Assembly (NCBI GenBank): GCA_944325075.1
Contig: CALUYU010000016.1
Location: forward strand, 1-42,111
Reading direction: 5' to 3'
From: Candidatus Gastranaerophilales bacterium
GTDB taxonomy: Bacteria; Cyanobacteriota; Vampirovibrionia; Gastranaerophilales; Gastranaerophilaceae
DNA: 42,111 bases
Within the stretch, counting starts at the first letter, position 1. Every line of letters starts with the position of its first letter. Below are positions 1 through 15,082 of this stretch, one piece after another. A program made the translations under genes and the position numbers. The notes under the pieces are model-generated. The model saw only the letters and a list, made by a program, of their open reading frames with translations. It was not told where the DNA came from and ran no database searches.

Positions 1-2
1 TT

Positions 3-1082
3 AAAAACAATGTAGGTTGGGCTTTCAGCCCAACATTAAAATATTGTTGGGGTAGAAACCCCAACCTACATAAAAACTGCGATGACCTCATAGGGAAAAA
101 GTCAATAAATAGTTCCCCATGTCATCCTGAACTCGCAGCTCCTCTTGTTGCCGACGAAAAGGAGGCTTACAAGGGAGGGTGCTCGCAGAGTATTTCAGGA
201 TCTAGCCACCGACAAAAATGTTCGACTATCTGTACACAAAAATCTAATGTTGGGCTGAAAGCCCAACCTACATTGATTTCCGTATCATCTCGTCGTCGGA
301 GCATTGTAATGCAGTGCCTCAGGCCCAACTCGCCTCGTAGAATTGCATTTACTCTGGCAGAAGTTCTAATAACCCTGGGCATAATCGGTGTTGTTGCCGC
401 TATGACGCTGCCGACATTGATAAATGATTATCAGGCTAAAGAAACTGTTACAAGGTTAAAGAAGGTTTATAGTATCATGAATCAAGCATACCTGCAAGCT
501 CAAAATGACCTTGGAACTATTGATAATTGGGGCCTTTCTAAATCCGAATTTGAGGAGGATCCGGATACCGGTGAGCAAATAGTTGGAGATCAGGCACTAG
601 CTCAGAGGACATTATTCTGGTCTCGAATGTCTCCATATTTGAAAACATTAAAAACTTGCATTAATTCAGATGATAGTGATTGTCTGTCATATCCTTATAC
701 ACTCTTAGGCGGTTACTCATCAGGTCGTAATTATGAACCCAGCATAATTTTAAATGATGGAACAAGTTTCTCCGGCGGCTGGATAAATAATCCTAATTGC
801 GGGGAAAAGGATCTGTGTGCTGATTTTAGCGTTGATATTAACGGTGCGAATCGTCCAAATGTTGTTGGGCGGGATATTTTTTATTTTCGTGTCTATAAAC
901 ATAAGATAAATCCTATAGGAGTGGTTGATGATACTACCCGTACGTTTGAAAATTATTGTTTACGCAATAGCGTAAAAGATTTTAACGGTTATGGTTGTGC
1001 TGCCTGGGTAATATTTAACGAAAATATGGATTATTTAAAGTGTGACGGTTTAAGTTGGGCCGGTAAACACAAATGTAAGTAA
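3..1082 (+). CDS. Type IV prepilin-like protein (KHKCK C-terminal family), 5' end outside window
   Basis: Prepilin or pseudopilin, exported and assembled by a type IV pilus or type II secretion-like machine. The signature is SPRRIAFTLAEVLITLG followed by IIGVVAAMTLPTL, the class III signal and hydrophobic helix; cleavage would fall between Ala and Phe (Ala instead of the usual Gly). The mature part has paired cysteines, a VDINGANRPNVVGRDIF block and the C-terminus NENMDYLKCDGLSW...KHKCK shared with the pilins ending at 4827 and 41542. The frame has no stop from base 3 onward, so the true start is probably left of the window, as in the paralogue at 4827-5945. Alternatives are TTG 273 or ATG 309, just before the signal. 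The upstream codons come from palindromic repeats. A terminator follows. Confidence 0.8.
   Translation, partial: KNNVGWAFSPTLKYCWGRNPNLHKNCDDLIGKKSINSSPCHPELAAPLVADEKEAYKGGCSQSISGSSHRQKCSTICTQKSNVGLKAQPTLISVSSRRRSIVMQCLRPNSPRRIAFTLAEVLITLGIIGVVAAMTLPTLINDYQAKETVTRLKKVYSIMNQAYLQAQNDLGTIDNWGLSKSEFEEDPDTGEQIVGDQALAQRTLFWSRMSPYLKTLKTCINSDDSDCLSYPYTLLGGYSSGRNYEPSIILNDGTSFSGGWINNPNCGEKDLCADFSVDINGANRPNVVGRDIFYFRVYKHKINPIGVVDDTTRTFENYCLRNSVKDFNGYGCAAWVIFNENMDYLKCDGLSWAGKHKCK
11..70. repeat. Pair of palindromic repeats (GTTGGGCT family)
   Basis: Two hairpins lie back to back: GTTGGGCT-TTC-AGCCCAAC type near 17-34 and GTTGGGG-TAGAAA-CCCCAAC near 46-67, flanked by TGTAGG/CCTACA. More copies lie at 246-272 and 5838-5900. 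In the prepilin frame they read NVGWAFSPT and the like without stops. Confidence 0.8.
121..213. repeat. Imperfect palindromic repeat inside the prepilin leader frame
   Basis: The stretch starting CATCCTGAACTCGCAG and ending near TTTCAGGATCTAGCCACCGA is an imperfect palindrome with an inner AGCTCCT/AGGAGGCT pairing. A close copy lies on the other strand at 5697-5790, at the same place in another prepilin gene. Both copies are open in the pilin frame (ELAAPLVAD, then SQSISGS). Confidence 0.75.
246..272. repeat. Palindromic repeat (GTTGGGCT family), third copy
   Basis: ATGTTGGGCTGAAAGCCCAA followed by CCTACAT is the same hairpin as at 11-36, in the opposite orientation. It sits directly before the candidate TTG start at 273. 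Confidence 0.8.
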
Positions 1083-4826: not shown

Positions 4827-5945
4827 CTATTTACATTTATGCTTACCGTTCCATGATAAATCACTACATTTCAGGTAATCCATATTTTCATTATAAATAA
4901 TCCACGCAGTGCAATGATATCCGTTCGCATTTAAGCAGTTTCTAACAAAATCATTAGGACTGCAGCCATATTTCCCGCAAGAAGGTACTCCGCCCGGGAA
5001 TATTCTGTCACCTACCAAAAACCAGTAAAAGAAATCGACTCCAAGCTGGTTTGGTGGCTTATGTCCGTTAATATCTGCATATATTTGAGCAAATATTCCG
5101 TCTGCCGGTGTAGTATTTATATACTCTGTTTCACCCTCCGAATTTGTTATGCCTGCTCTTCTTAGATTAAACATTATAAAAGTTCCATCAGCCAGAATTC
5201 CTGATGCTCTGGTATTCCCTTTACCGTCATATCTACTGTAATCCCCGCCTTTAACATCTTTGTACATTGTATTTTCCCAGCATTCTCCAACATTTCCCGG
5301 ACATTTTTTCTGGAATTTAAGATATTTGGCAAATTTTTCCATTAAAAGATCGTCGTCCCATTCAAATGTTTCGCTGTTAACCATTCCTCCGCCTTCTTCT
5401 TCTCGAATTAGCGTATAAGCTTGGGCAAGCTGAGAATTAATTTTCTTCAACTGTGTAACCGTTTGCTTTACTTTATAATTTTGGATGAGTGTTGGCAAAG
5501 TCATAGCTGCAACAACCCCGATTATGCCTAGGGTTATAAGAACCTCCGCTAGGGTGAAAGCAATTCGACGAGGCGAGTAGTGCCTGAGGCACGACACTAT
5601 TATGCTGCGCTCTTCAGTATTCAACGTAATATTATTGTATGTTGTGCATACTTGCCCAACATTGGATTTATTGATATTGAAATCTGTATATTCTTGTCGG
5701 TGGCAAGATCCTGAAATACTCTGCGAGCCCCCTCCATTGTAAGCCTCCTTTACGTCGGCAACAAGAGGAGCTGCGAGTTCATGATGACATGGGAAATTTT
5801 TTATCGACCTTTTCCATATGCGGCCCACACTGCTTTTTTGTAGGTTGGGGTTTCCACCCCAACAAAGTTTTATTGTTGGGCTGAAAGCCCAACCAACATT
5901 ATCTCTTTTTCCTTTGGCGAAATTTTTTTTGAAAAACTTATTCAT
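4827..5945 (-). CDS. Type IV prepilin-like protein with long repeat-filled leader
   Basis: 372 residues from ATG 5945, which has an ideal ribosome site (AAAGGAGG, 7 bases away). The first residues MNKFFKKNFAKGK resemble MDRFLEKILNKLN of the third prepilin. Residues 15 to about 115 are encoded by palindromic repeats kept in frame. The prepilin signal SPRRIAFTLAEVLITLG and helix start near residue 124. The mature part has two Cys pairs, DINGHKPPNQLGVDFFYW and the C-terminus NENMDYLKCSDLSW...KHKCK, as in the first and fourth pilins. A GTG at 5597 would give a short leader. If translation begins at 5945, the prepilin peptidase would remove a leader of over 100 residues. Confidence 0.8.
   Translation of the reverse strand: MNKFFKKNFAKGKRDNVGWAFSPTIKLCWGGNPNLQKSSVGRIWKRSIKNFPCHHELAAPLVADVKEAYNGGGSQSISGSCHRQEYTDFNINKSNVGQVCTTYNNITLNTEERSIIVSCLRHYSPRRIAFTLAEVLITLGIIGVVAAMTLPTLIQNYKVKQTVTQLKKINSQLAQAYTLIREEEGGGMVNSETFEWDDDLLMEKFAKYLKFQKKCPGNVGECWENTMYKDVKGGDYSRYDGKGNTRASGILADGTFIMFNLRRAGITNSEGETEYINTTPADGIFAQIYADINGHKPPNQLGVDFFYWFLVGDRIFPGGVPSCGKYGCSPNDFVRNCLNANGYHCTAWIIYNENMDYLKCSDLSWNGKHKCK
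5697..5790. repeat. Imperfect palindromic repeat, second copy
   Basis: Near-identical to 121-213 in inverted orientation (GATCCTGAAATACTCTGCGA to CAACAAGAGGAGCTGCGAG). It lies in the leader of the second prepilin gene and reads in frame as ELAAPLVAD and SQSISGS. Confidence 0.75.
5838..5900. repeat. Two palindromic repeats (GTTGGGCT family)
   Basis: GTTGGGG-TTTCCA-CCCCAAC near 5844-5863 and GTTGGGCT-GAA-AGCCCAAC near 5875-5893. They repeat the paired arrangement seen at 11-70 and are open in the prepilin frame (NVGWAFSPT). Confidence 0.8.
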
Positions 5946-6191
5946 AAAATACCTCCTTTTATTAGCGAAAAAAATTGCAGCACAAAATGGCGAAATAAAA
6001 ATATTTCACCTAAAATTCCTTCCAAACAGAAAGATTGAATCCAAAAATTTTCCCAAACTCTGCGGAAAATTTTATTTACCCACACAAAACAATCAATACT
6101 AATACGTAAAACACGCTCAGTATAAGAGTTTAGACCCTTAGTATGCCCCCCCCCTAATCAGGGAAATCCGCTCTATGATTGCGTTTTGCAT
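5942..6191 (-). other. Short ORF with G9 tract; opens to 82 codons if one G is lost
   Basis: ATG 6191 has an ideal AGGAGG site 7 bases upstream. As sequenced it reads 17 residues (MQNAIIERISLIRGGAY) and stops at 6138, just after a run of nine G (6146-6154, C on the plus strand). With eight G the frame runs to TGA 5944-5942, overlapping the prepilin ATG 5945 as ATGA. The 82-residue product would be hydrophobic and would contain LGEIFLFRHFVLQFF. The matching ORF at 14769-15042 has LGETFLFRRFVMQIF with synonymous changes (GGT/GGC, TTA/CTG, CGC/CGT), which indicates coding selection. Likely a phase-variable or slippage-expressed small membrane protein coupled to the pilin; sequencing error in the tract is the main rival. 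Confidence 0.6.
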
Positions 6192-13646: not shown

Positions 13647-14750
13647 TTAGAATCTTATCGGGTAATCATCCGGTATTGTCCAGCCGTTAATTTGTATTGC
13701 TTTTGTATACATTGACGGGTGGGTATATAAATCATTCTTAGTCACTAATCCCGGAGTATCCGTATTGATACTTCCGTCAGGATTCCTCAAATCACAGTAT
13801 ACGTGTGGTTCAATACCTTTATTGTAGAAATTTTGGTACCCATAACTTCCAGTCGTGCATGATCCGTTCTTACTTGGATAAAAACCAAAATGAAAACATT
13901 CTCTCCCCAGAAGATCATTTTGGGTACTATTTTTACCGTTTCCTACATCATCTATATTTTTTGCGTCAAGACAGTATAACCAATCGTGCCCTTTGTTAAC
14001 TACCTGTGCACCGCTGCCGTCGGCAAAATATAATAATATTCCCGCGTTATCTGGTGCATTGGTAATTTTAAGAGTTTTCAACTCATCTTTAAAGTACTTA
14101 TTATAGAAATTAAGAAGTTCTTCGGAATTGTATTCTGCAGGAAATTCCCAATACTCAGTTTCTCCGTTTTTAACAATACTTAATTTAACGGCCTGATTTG
14201 CGGTTGTATAGAATTTTTTTAAAGATGTTTCAACTACGGATTTTTTGTACTTTGCAGTTAATGTTGGCAAAGTCATAGCGGCGACGACTCCTATAATGCC
14301 AAGGGTTATTAAAACTTCAGCCAGGGTAAATGCGACTCTGCGAGGCGAGTGGTAGTGTGGTGAAAAGACCTCAGCCAGGGTAAATGCGACTCTGCGAGGC
14401 GAGTGGTAGTGTGGTAAAAAGACCTCAGCCAGGGTAAATGCGACTCTGCGAGGCGAGTGGTAGTGTGGTAAAAAGACCTCAGCCAGGGTAAATGCCGTGG
14501 CATAGCCACCTCTTTTGATTTCTTCTTTGTTCTTTTTCCCTTTTTGTGAGCTGCCAAAAAGAAAATGCGAACCGAAAAAGAATAACTTACCGTTACACTT
14601 TCCCGCCTTAAGGCGGTGATTTGACCATTTAGGAGACTGAAATGCTTGCGCATTTCCTTCGATGTCGAACTTATTTCTCTCTCGCCCGTTCGCCTCTCTA
14701 TCCTCTGCATAATTTAGTTTGTTCAATATTTTTTCTAAAAATCTATCCAT
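13647..14750 (-). CDS. Type IV prepilin-like protein with tandemly repeated signal motif
   Basis: 367 residues from ATG 14750 (AAAGGAGG, 7 bases away). Starts MDRFLEKILNKLN; residues 14-85 are of unclear origin (FGSHFLFGSSQKGKKNKEE). Then the cleavage motif appears four times: FTLAEVF plus 11 linker residues (HYHSPRRVA type) repeated, the last copy running into FTLAEVLITLGIIGVV. Only this copy has the full helix. The mature part contains NGETEYWEF, GILLYFADG, several Cys and ends INGWTIPDDYPIRF, like the truncated copy at 4173. It is preceded by the G10 leader and its promoter. Which repeat the peptidase would cut, if any but the last, is unknown. Confidence 0.8.
   Translation of the reverse strand: MDRFLEKILNKLNYAEDREANGRERNKFDIEGNAQAFQSPKWSNHRLKAGKCNGKLFFFGSHFLFGSSQKGKKNKEEIKRGGYATAFTLAEVFLPHYHSPRRVAFTLAEVFLPHYHSPRRVAFTLAEVFSPHYHSPRRVAFTLAEVLITLGIIGVVAAMTLPTLTAKYKKSVVETSLKKFYTTANQAVKLSIVKNGETEYWEFPAEYNSEELLNFYNKYFKDELKTLKITNAPDNAGILLYFADGSGAQVVNKGHDWLYCLDAKNIDDVGNGKNSTQNDLLGRECFHFGFYPSKNGSCTTGSYGYQNFYNKGIEPHVYCDLRNPDGSINTDTPGLVTKNDLYTHPSMYTKAIQINGWTIPDDYPIRF
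14317..14495 (-). repeat. 54-bp tandem repeat encoding the prepilin cleavage motif
   Basis: Copies start at 14317, 14371, 14425 and a partial one at 14479, an exact period of 54 bp (18 codons). Within the repeats I see only a change of TGAAAAG to TAAAAAG. The last boundary runs into a GTGGCTATGCCAC hairpin. Confidence 0.92.
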
Positions 14751-14768
14751 AAAATACCTCCTTTATTT

Positions 14769-15042
14769 CTAAAAAATTTGCATCACAAATCGACGAAACA
14801 GAAAAGTTTCGCCTAAAACAATCCGCTTCAGTCCCAAAATACGGATTAAAAAATCTAATCCGTAAACAACTGAACTCAAAAAAACTTTTAAAATCCAATT
14901 ATACCAATTAAAAACAGAAATAACCTCAAGCAAAAGCCCCGCTACAAGCGGATTTTGTCCCTTAAGCTGCCCCCCCCCCTATCAGGAAAACGCTTACTAT
15001 GATTGGGTTTTGCTGGTATCTCAACATAAATAAAATATCCAT
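14769..15042 (-). other. Short ORF with G10 tract; opens to 90 codons if one G is lost
   Basis: ATG 15042 (or in-frame ATG 15027) reads QQNPIIVSVFLIGGGAA and stops at 14962, right after ten G (14970-14979). With nine G the frame continues to TAG 14771-14769, just before the ribosome site of the prepilin. The 90-residue product would be strongly hydrophobic (GLLLEVISVFNWYNWILKVF) with the C-terminus LGETFLFRRFVMQIF, matching the ORF at 5942-6191. The ribosome site is weaker (AAGGA, close to the first ATG). Both copies are out of frame by the same one base. Interpretation as in the first copy. Confidence 0.6.
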
Positions 15043-15053
15043 ATTCCTTTTTT

Positions 15054-15082
15054 ATTATAACAATATCTCATAAAGTTTTCAA
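15054..15082 (-). promoter_or_regulatory. Promoter of the G10 leader/prepilin transcript
   Basis: Minus strand TTGAAA, 17-bp spacer, TATAAT; same boxes as at 6211-6238. Confidence 0.75.

Follow-up and report, generated by a model that had tools for sequence, protein, structure and literature searches.

Poly-G tracts one base out of frame upstream of a large prepilin repertoire in gut Gastranaerophilales: a candidate default-OFF phase-variation system

In Neisseria, frameshifts within a 5'-proximal G tract of the pilus gene pilC reportedly switch pili on and off, an observation attributed to Jonsson in 1991. The nearest described system to the one presented here is that of the sortase-dependent pilus loci bbr_0113 and bbr_1889 of Bifidobacterium breve, in which a tract of 10-12 Gs is located between the start codon and the pilin ORF (PMC9187656). 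These tracts turn ON or OFF through replication slippage by a change of one G, and the ON state was enriched in mice; the annotated genome is in the OFF state, one G above the in-frame length, and tracts of 10 and 9 Gs were used to construct in-frame versions (PMC9187656). In Campylobacter, many poly-G tracts of 9-11 reside within the reading frames of surface genes, with per-genome medians in a draft set of 20 for C. jejuni and 15 for C. coli and a share of ON tracts near that of neutral drift (PMC6321876, PMC4965091). Campylobacter and Neisseria represent the general kind of switch (PMC6321876, PMC5084427). For the Melainabacteria/Gastranaerophilales, a literature search with subscription journals and preprints outside its range returned no relevant paper on phase variation or such tracts.

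The window analyzed is a contig of 42,111 nucleotides from a Candidatus Gastranaerophilales bacterium, the genome of which (G000) comprises 2.26 Mb in 107 contigs. Comparisons were made on assembled sequence with one genome per species, including the congener G011, and the G tracts considered are a sample of the total. Tracts of at least nine Gs are far above chance (0.10 expected in the window) and number 128 in G000, 115 in G020, 91 in G033, 82 in G011, 51 in G031, and 45 in G024. The majority of the G000 tracts examined are placed directly upstream of prepilin genes, and a prepilin motif was found within 600 nt downstream in 64 of the 79 untruncated ones, as against 3.75% of random 1.5-kb stretches. 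Many of the G000 tracts are situated within ~200 nt of contig ends (C5, C7, C11, C20, C22, C29, C36, C39, and C42), and hence the 5' repeats of prepilin genes probably break this assembly. Two tracts of G020 (L169 and L170), of which one is in frame and the other is not, are located near the start of proteins of ~525-535 aa without a prepilin-like beginning.

The locus at 14769-15042 lies on the minus strand (Table 1), and the layout ascribed to it in the earlier note, i.e., a promoter, an ORF, a G10 tract, a stop two codons later, and 90 open codons upon removal of one G, was borne out by the sequence in each element. The native frame past the tract reads ...GGG GCA GCT TAA with its stop at 14964-14962, and the shifted leader ends in a TAG at 14771-14769, 18 nt before the prepilin ATG. 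A -10-like TATAAT is present in other copies too, within unrelated upstream segments; the start at 15042 is without a well-placed Shine-Dalgarno sequence, whereas most other copies have one. The other window copy, at 6.1 kb, also has one base too many despite its G9 tract because its upstream start is one base further out, and the stop of its shifted leader overlaps the start of the downstream prepilin (TTATGA). The earlier statement that both copies have the same one-base offset is true and extends across the family and across genera. The C-termini of the shifted frames, LGETFLFRRFVMQIF in the 14.8-15.0 kb copy and LGEIFLFRHFVLQFF in the 6.1 kb copy, agree in LGExFLFRxFVxQ as claimed. Within the N-terminus of the prepilin at 13647-14750, three near-identical direct repeats of ~54 nt (14300-14500, minus strand) restate the cleavage motif (AFTLAEVFLPHYHSPRRV) ahead of the real helix, and doubled motifs of this type were also seen in C13, C72, and C67. 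Repeats such as CHPELAAPLVADVKEAYKGGGSQSISG and GWAFSPT...CWGRNPNLQK, which occur in frame inside long prepilin leaders (window 1-300 and 5600-5900, minus strand, and many copies), look like dispersed palindromic elements translated as protein.

Table 1. Coordinates of features of the two leader copies in the window.
Feature	Position	Strand	Basis
Sigma70-like promoter, TTGAAA (15082-15077)-17 bp-TATAAT (15059-15054)	15054..15082	-	sequence
Start codon ATG	15042-15040	-	sequence
Native-frame ORF MDILFMLRYQQNPIIVSVFLIGGGAA, 26 aa, stop two codons past the tract	14962..15042	-	sequence
Block A, conserved motif CAAAACCCAATCATAG...TTTCCCTGATAG10C, one of 59 copies	14943..15012	-	profile search and copy comparison
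G10 tract, one G in excess for the downstream frame	14970..14979	-	frame reading
Leader ORF with one G fewer, 90 codons; open frame, peptide unconserved	14769..15042	-	
Block B hairpin GGCGAAAC-TTTTCT-GTTTCGTC, preceding the prepilin ribosome-binding site	14792..14813	-	pairing analysis
Prepilin Shine-Dalgarno AGGAGG	14757..14762	-	sequence
Prepilin gene FTLAEVLITLGIIGVVAAMTLPTL, body matching Pfam DUF6613	13647..14750	-	motif and DUF6613
G9 tract of the other window copy (6.1 kb), also one base too many	6146..6154	-	frame reading
Prepilin downstream of the 6.1 kb copy	4827..5945	-	N_methyl just under cut-off

The locus had been described as a second copy of one gene; the gene layout is indeed the same, but it is actually one of 59 copies in two genomes. 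A DNA search of G000 with the leader returned dozens of dispersed copies, and none was found in eleven other congeners at the stringency used. The profile search of sampled stretches for the block A leader gave 45 copies in G000, which is to be read as at least 45, and 14 in G011. In the fused class of loci, the frame past the tract continues into the prepilin, while in the coupled class, which includes both window copies, a leader of 50-90 codons ends at the prepilin ribosome-binding site. Class 1, that of the window copies, consists of block A and block B, the latter just ahead of this ribosome-binding site; in class 2, the block A DNA motif is present in another reading frame that is continuous with the prepilin. 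The use of the motif in two frames indicates that block A is not conserved as a peptide. In G031 (L196-L225), the tracts are longer (G14-G20), the leader is different (MKKELKNGCNVGIAPLS), and no phase dominates.

The label prepilin is based on the motif, on DUF6613 counts, and, for three proteins, on matches to Pfam. The N-terminal methylation motif (xFTLAEV and a hydrophobic helix) and a prepilin peptidase encoded in G000 are both in agreement with type IV pilin-like prepilins. The N_methyl match was above the cut-off for the class 2 example and just under it for 4827-5945, while 13647-14750 was recognized by the motif only.

To assign phase, the start (ATG with a Shine-Dalgarno sequence) and the prepilin frame were located independently of the tract at sampled loci. 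Nearly all copies of the block A family need exactly one base removed to link the start with the long downstream frame. Most fused loci were one base off in four genera: one G was in excess at 29/36 loci in G000, 30/38 in G020, and 15/17 in G024 (too many/in frame/too few, 29/5/2, 30/6/2, and 15/1/1, respectively), while one G was missing at 33/40 in G033, the fourth genus (1/6/33). The counts were 4/4/1 in G011 and 4/0/4 in G031. The rule is thus one base off, in the same direction within a genome, and G033 shows that an excess of one G is not universal. In-frame alleles were found in every genome with a dominant phase, and their share over the six genomes was 22/148 (15%), below one third (binomial p 3e-7, with the relatedness of paralogues ignored and the independent units nearer to four genera plus several leader families within them). 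The phase was constant at differing lengths, from G9 to G12 in the block A family, at G13 in the third G000 class, and from G11 to G14 in G020, which rules out that the tract length itself is fixed; the apparent compensation is partly A-to-G substitution at the tract edge and not paired indels, and such cases were not counted as independent. As in known poly-G phase-variable loci, the tract is present inside a reading frame, its length sets the downstream frame, and a one-unit change links the start codon to the gene. Neutral switching would leave about one third of the loci in frame along with both OFF phases; an offset as one-sided as this calls for selection, for a mutational bias, or for paralogues that have stable tracts and a common descent.

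Among paralogues with near-identical flanks, tract length was equal in 73 pairs and different in 30, by one or two Gs, i.e., the variation typical of phase-variable loci was observed between paralogues and not strains. For example, in the third G000 class, G12 is in frame and G13 is out of frame. These differences, and the in-frame alleles beside OFF alleles, point to replication slippage. A 4-nt deletion adjoining an unchanged G10 brings the coupled locus L047 (G000:C34:1258) into frame relative to the 98.5% identical L098 (G011:C34:8087), and the deletion is also present in the neighboring copy C34:66. Between G000 and G011, 11 of 11 pairs with near-identical flanks had tracts of equal length, and the ortholog of the window locus in G011 (flanks ~86% identical) retains G10 and the phase, with its promoter and start part diverged. 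The edge of the cassette at CAAAACCCAATC is abrupt, window 15012 and G011:C33:8514 being dissimilar before it and ~98% identical after it, and it recurs in G000:C15:16746 versus G011:C31:3235, a pattern resembling replacement of the cassette downstream of a promoter and start that stayed in place. The syntenic retention of G10 and phase, together with an offset more one-sided than neutral, implies that selection for OFF, mutational bias, or expression slippage must contribute. The earlier suggestion of slippage-dependent expression rather than random switching is thus only partly upheld: in-frame alleles and paralogue length differences favor switching at the DNA level, but the uniform offset exceeds the neutral expectation. 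MutS1 is encoded in 57/57 genomes, which rules out MutS loss as the cause of the many tracts; its presence should slow 1-nt slippage and counts against it, although not decisively.

Substitutions in the pilin N-terminal regions amounted to 0.283, 0.185, and 0.522 at codon positions 1, 2, and 3, a strong third-position excess that was also found at OFF loci alone (G020, 0.195/0.143/0.519), the bodies of which are mostly full length. On this sequence evidence, purifying selection acts on the pilin bodies at OFF loci, indicating that OFF genes are used at some time. In the class 1 leader frame, substitutions were equal at the three positions (0.238/0.224/0.205; 60 alignable pairs), and leader ortholog pairs of G000 and G011 had 14, 19, and 15. 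Owing to these equal rates and to the occurrence of block B in at least two phases, the selection on protein proposed earlier for the shifted leader is not upheld. The check proposed along with it, in which equal rates and stops within the shifted frame would speak against such selection, gave equal rates at all positions but an open frame in nearly all copies, with 26/26 pairs open versus ~7.9 expected from substitutions alone, an excess that is strong but not exact as the pairs overlap and open copies were chosen by length. The shifted leader ends at +1/+5 or -15 to -50 nt relative to the prepilin ATG in most copies. An open frame that is free of peptide constraint and ends at the start of the next gene is as translational coupling would predict.

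Block B forms a hairpin, GGCGAAA...TTTCGCC, ~40 nt ahead of the prepilin ATG, and is in phase 0 or 1 relative to the leader frame in most copies and in phase 2 in one. It was paired in 92.9% of cells versus 39-60% with slid partners, with little covariation; retention of the pairing with few compensatory changes is only suggestive. The presence of at least two phases and of the hairpin suggests that block B is kept as DNA or RNA and not as a peptide, and the LGExFLFRxFVxQ C-termini of the window copies are alike because block B is in phase 0 in both. Rfam scans of both window leaders gave sub-threshold chance matches and none at the gathering score, and RNA folding of the tract and ribosome-binding regions was no better than that of shuffles.

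It is likely, at a probability of about 0.68, that these loci constitute default-OFF phase variation of a large, dispersed prepilin repertoire by poly-G slippage. The reading draws on features of the sequences, namely, the offset and its uniformity within a genome, the open leader frame, the constraint on OFF pilins, and the varied tract lengths of near-identical paralogues. Transcription and translation would start upstream of the tract, and at the assembled length the ribosome would meet a stop 0 to ~30 codons past it (two in the window copy). In DNA molecules that have lost one G, or gained one in one genus, through replication slippage within populations, translation would continue past the tract. 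In the fused class it would enter the prepilin directly; in the coupled class the ribosome would cross an otherwise unconstrained leader to the prepilin ribosome-binding site, and translation of the prepilin would be coupled to, and require, that of the leader. Pili would then be made from in-frame alleles, and the benefit may be a sparse and variable pilus display in the gut. Counting against a switch, the coupled prepilin has its own Shine-Dalgarno sequence and ATG and could be translated independently of the leader, and the G14-G18 tracts of G031 have no single preferred phase (4/0/4).

The one-base-off tract could instead be the working state, with RNA polymerase or the ribosome correcting a few events so that each cell makes a little of many pilins. 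Such programmed slippage would account for an offset that is uniform within a genome despite varied tract lengths and start distances, for purifying selection on OFF genes, and for the unchanged phase of the syntenic window locus in another species. It is nevertheless unlikely, given the in-frame alleles in all genomes with a dominant phase, the opposite offset of G033, and the one-G differences among paralogues with near-identical flanks. Moreover, the distance from the tract to the native stop (0 to ~30 codons) defines no fixed recoding site, no slip site conserved at a constant distance from a stop or stimulator was found, folding did not exceed that of shuffles, and G/C runs are reported to undergo transcriptional slippage less readily than A/T runs (PMC5084427). 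If families had spread by duplication of an out-of-frame copy and tracts rarely changed, OFF copies would form a silent reservoir from which a few expressed loci draw by recombination, which is in agreement with the common 5' regions and differing pilin bodies (C13/C72), the sharp cassette edge, and the equal lengths in the G000/G011 pairs; however, every OFF copy retains its promoter and start codon, the pilin retains protein-level constraint, and close paralogues do vary in tract length, making this account improbable.

A DNA- or RNA-level element alone, such as a G-quadruplex or regulatory RNA, with a meaningless shifted frame, would suit block A in two frames, block B in several phases, and an unconstrained leader peptide. 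It is very improbable because in the fused class the tract separates the sole good start from the prepilin, the leader frame is open more often than expected, and neither the folding analysis nor the Rfam scans singled out a structure. As for a homopolymer sequencing or assembly artefact, Illumina reads G tracts poorly (PMC9187656) and the G000 lengths are as assembled; yet an excess of Gs in three genomes with a deficit in another, one phase across lengths from 9 to 14, and in-frame and OFF alleles side by side in one assembly leave it a negligible probability.

If phase variation by poly-G slippage is the correct reading, the gut Gastranaerophilales, non-photosynthetic sisters of cyanobacteria, would rank among the groups in which homopolymer switching is densest, its use here being devoted to pilins. 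They would also offer a clear case of an offset that is both coherent and default-OFF, an outcome not expected from neutral phase variation. In each genome, annotation would then probably have marked dozens of pilin genes as broken or given them false starts. More tentatively, and on balance doubtfully, the clade may keep its largest surface-protein family coherently one base off, with pili obtained only via slippage, either in rare in-frame cells as a lottery among roughly one hundred pilins or with polymerase or ribosome slippage as the norm.

Like B. breve, the present organism appears as a gut commensal with a G tract near the pilin start that is OFF in the assembled genome. Unlike the two sortase-pilus loci of that species, more than 100 tracts are present here, with type IV-like prepilins, a coupled-leader class, and a uniform offset over dozens of paralogues. 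Poly-G tracts within the reading frames of multiple surface genes are shared with Campylobacter, whereas here the six genomes counted have 45 to 128 tracts of at least nine Gs, mostly before prepilins, and an in-frame share of 15%. The G tract of Neisseria pilC is likewise 5'-proximal in a pilus gene, but pilC is an assembly/adhesin gene in one or two copies, in contrast to the large prepilin family described here.
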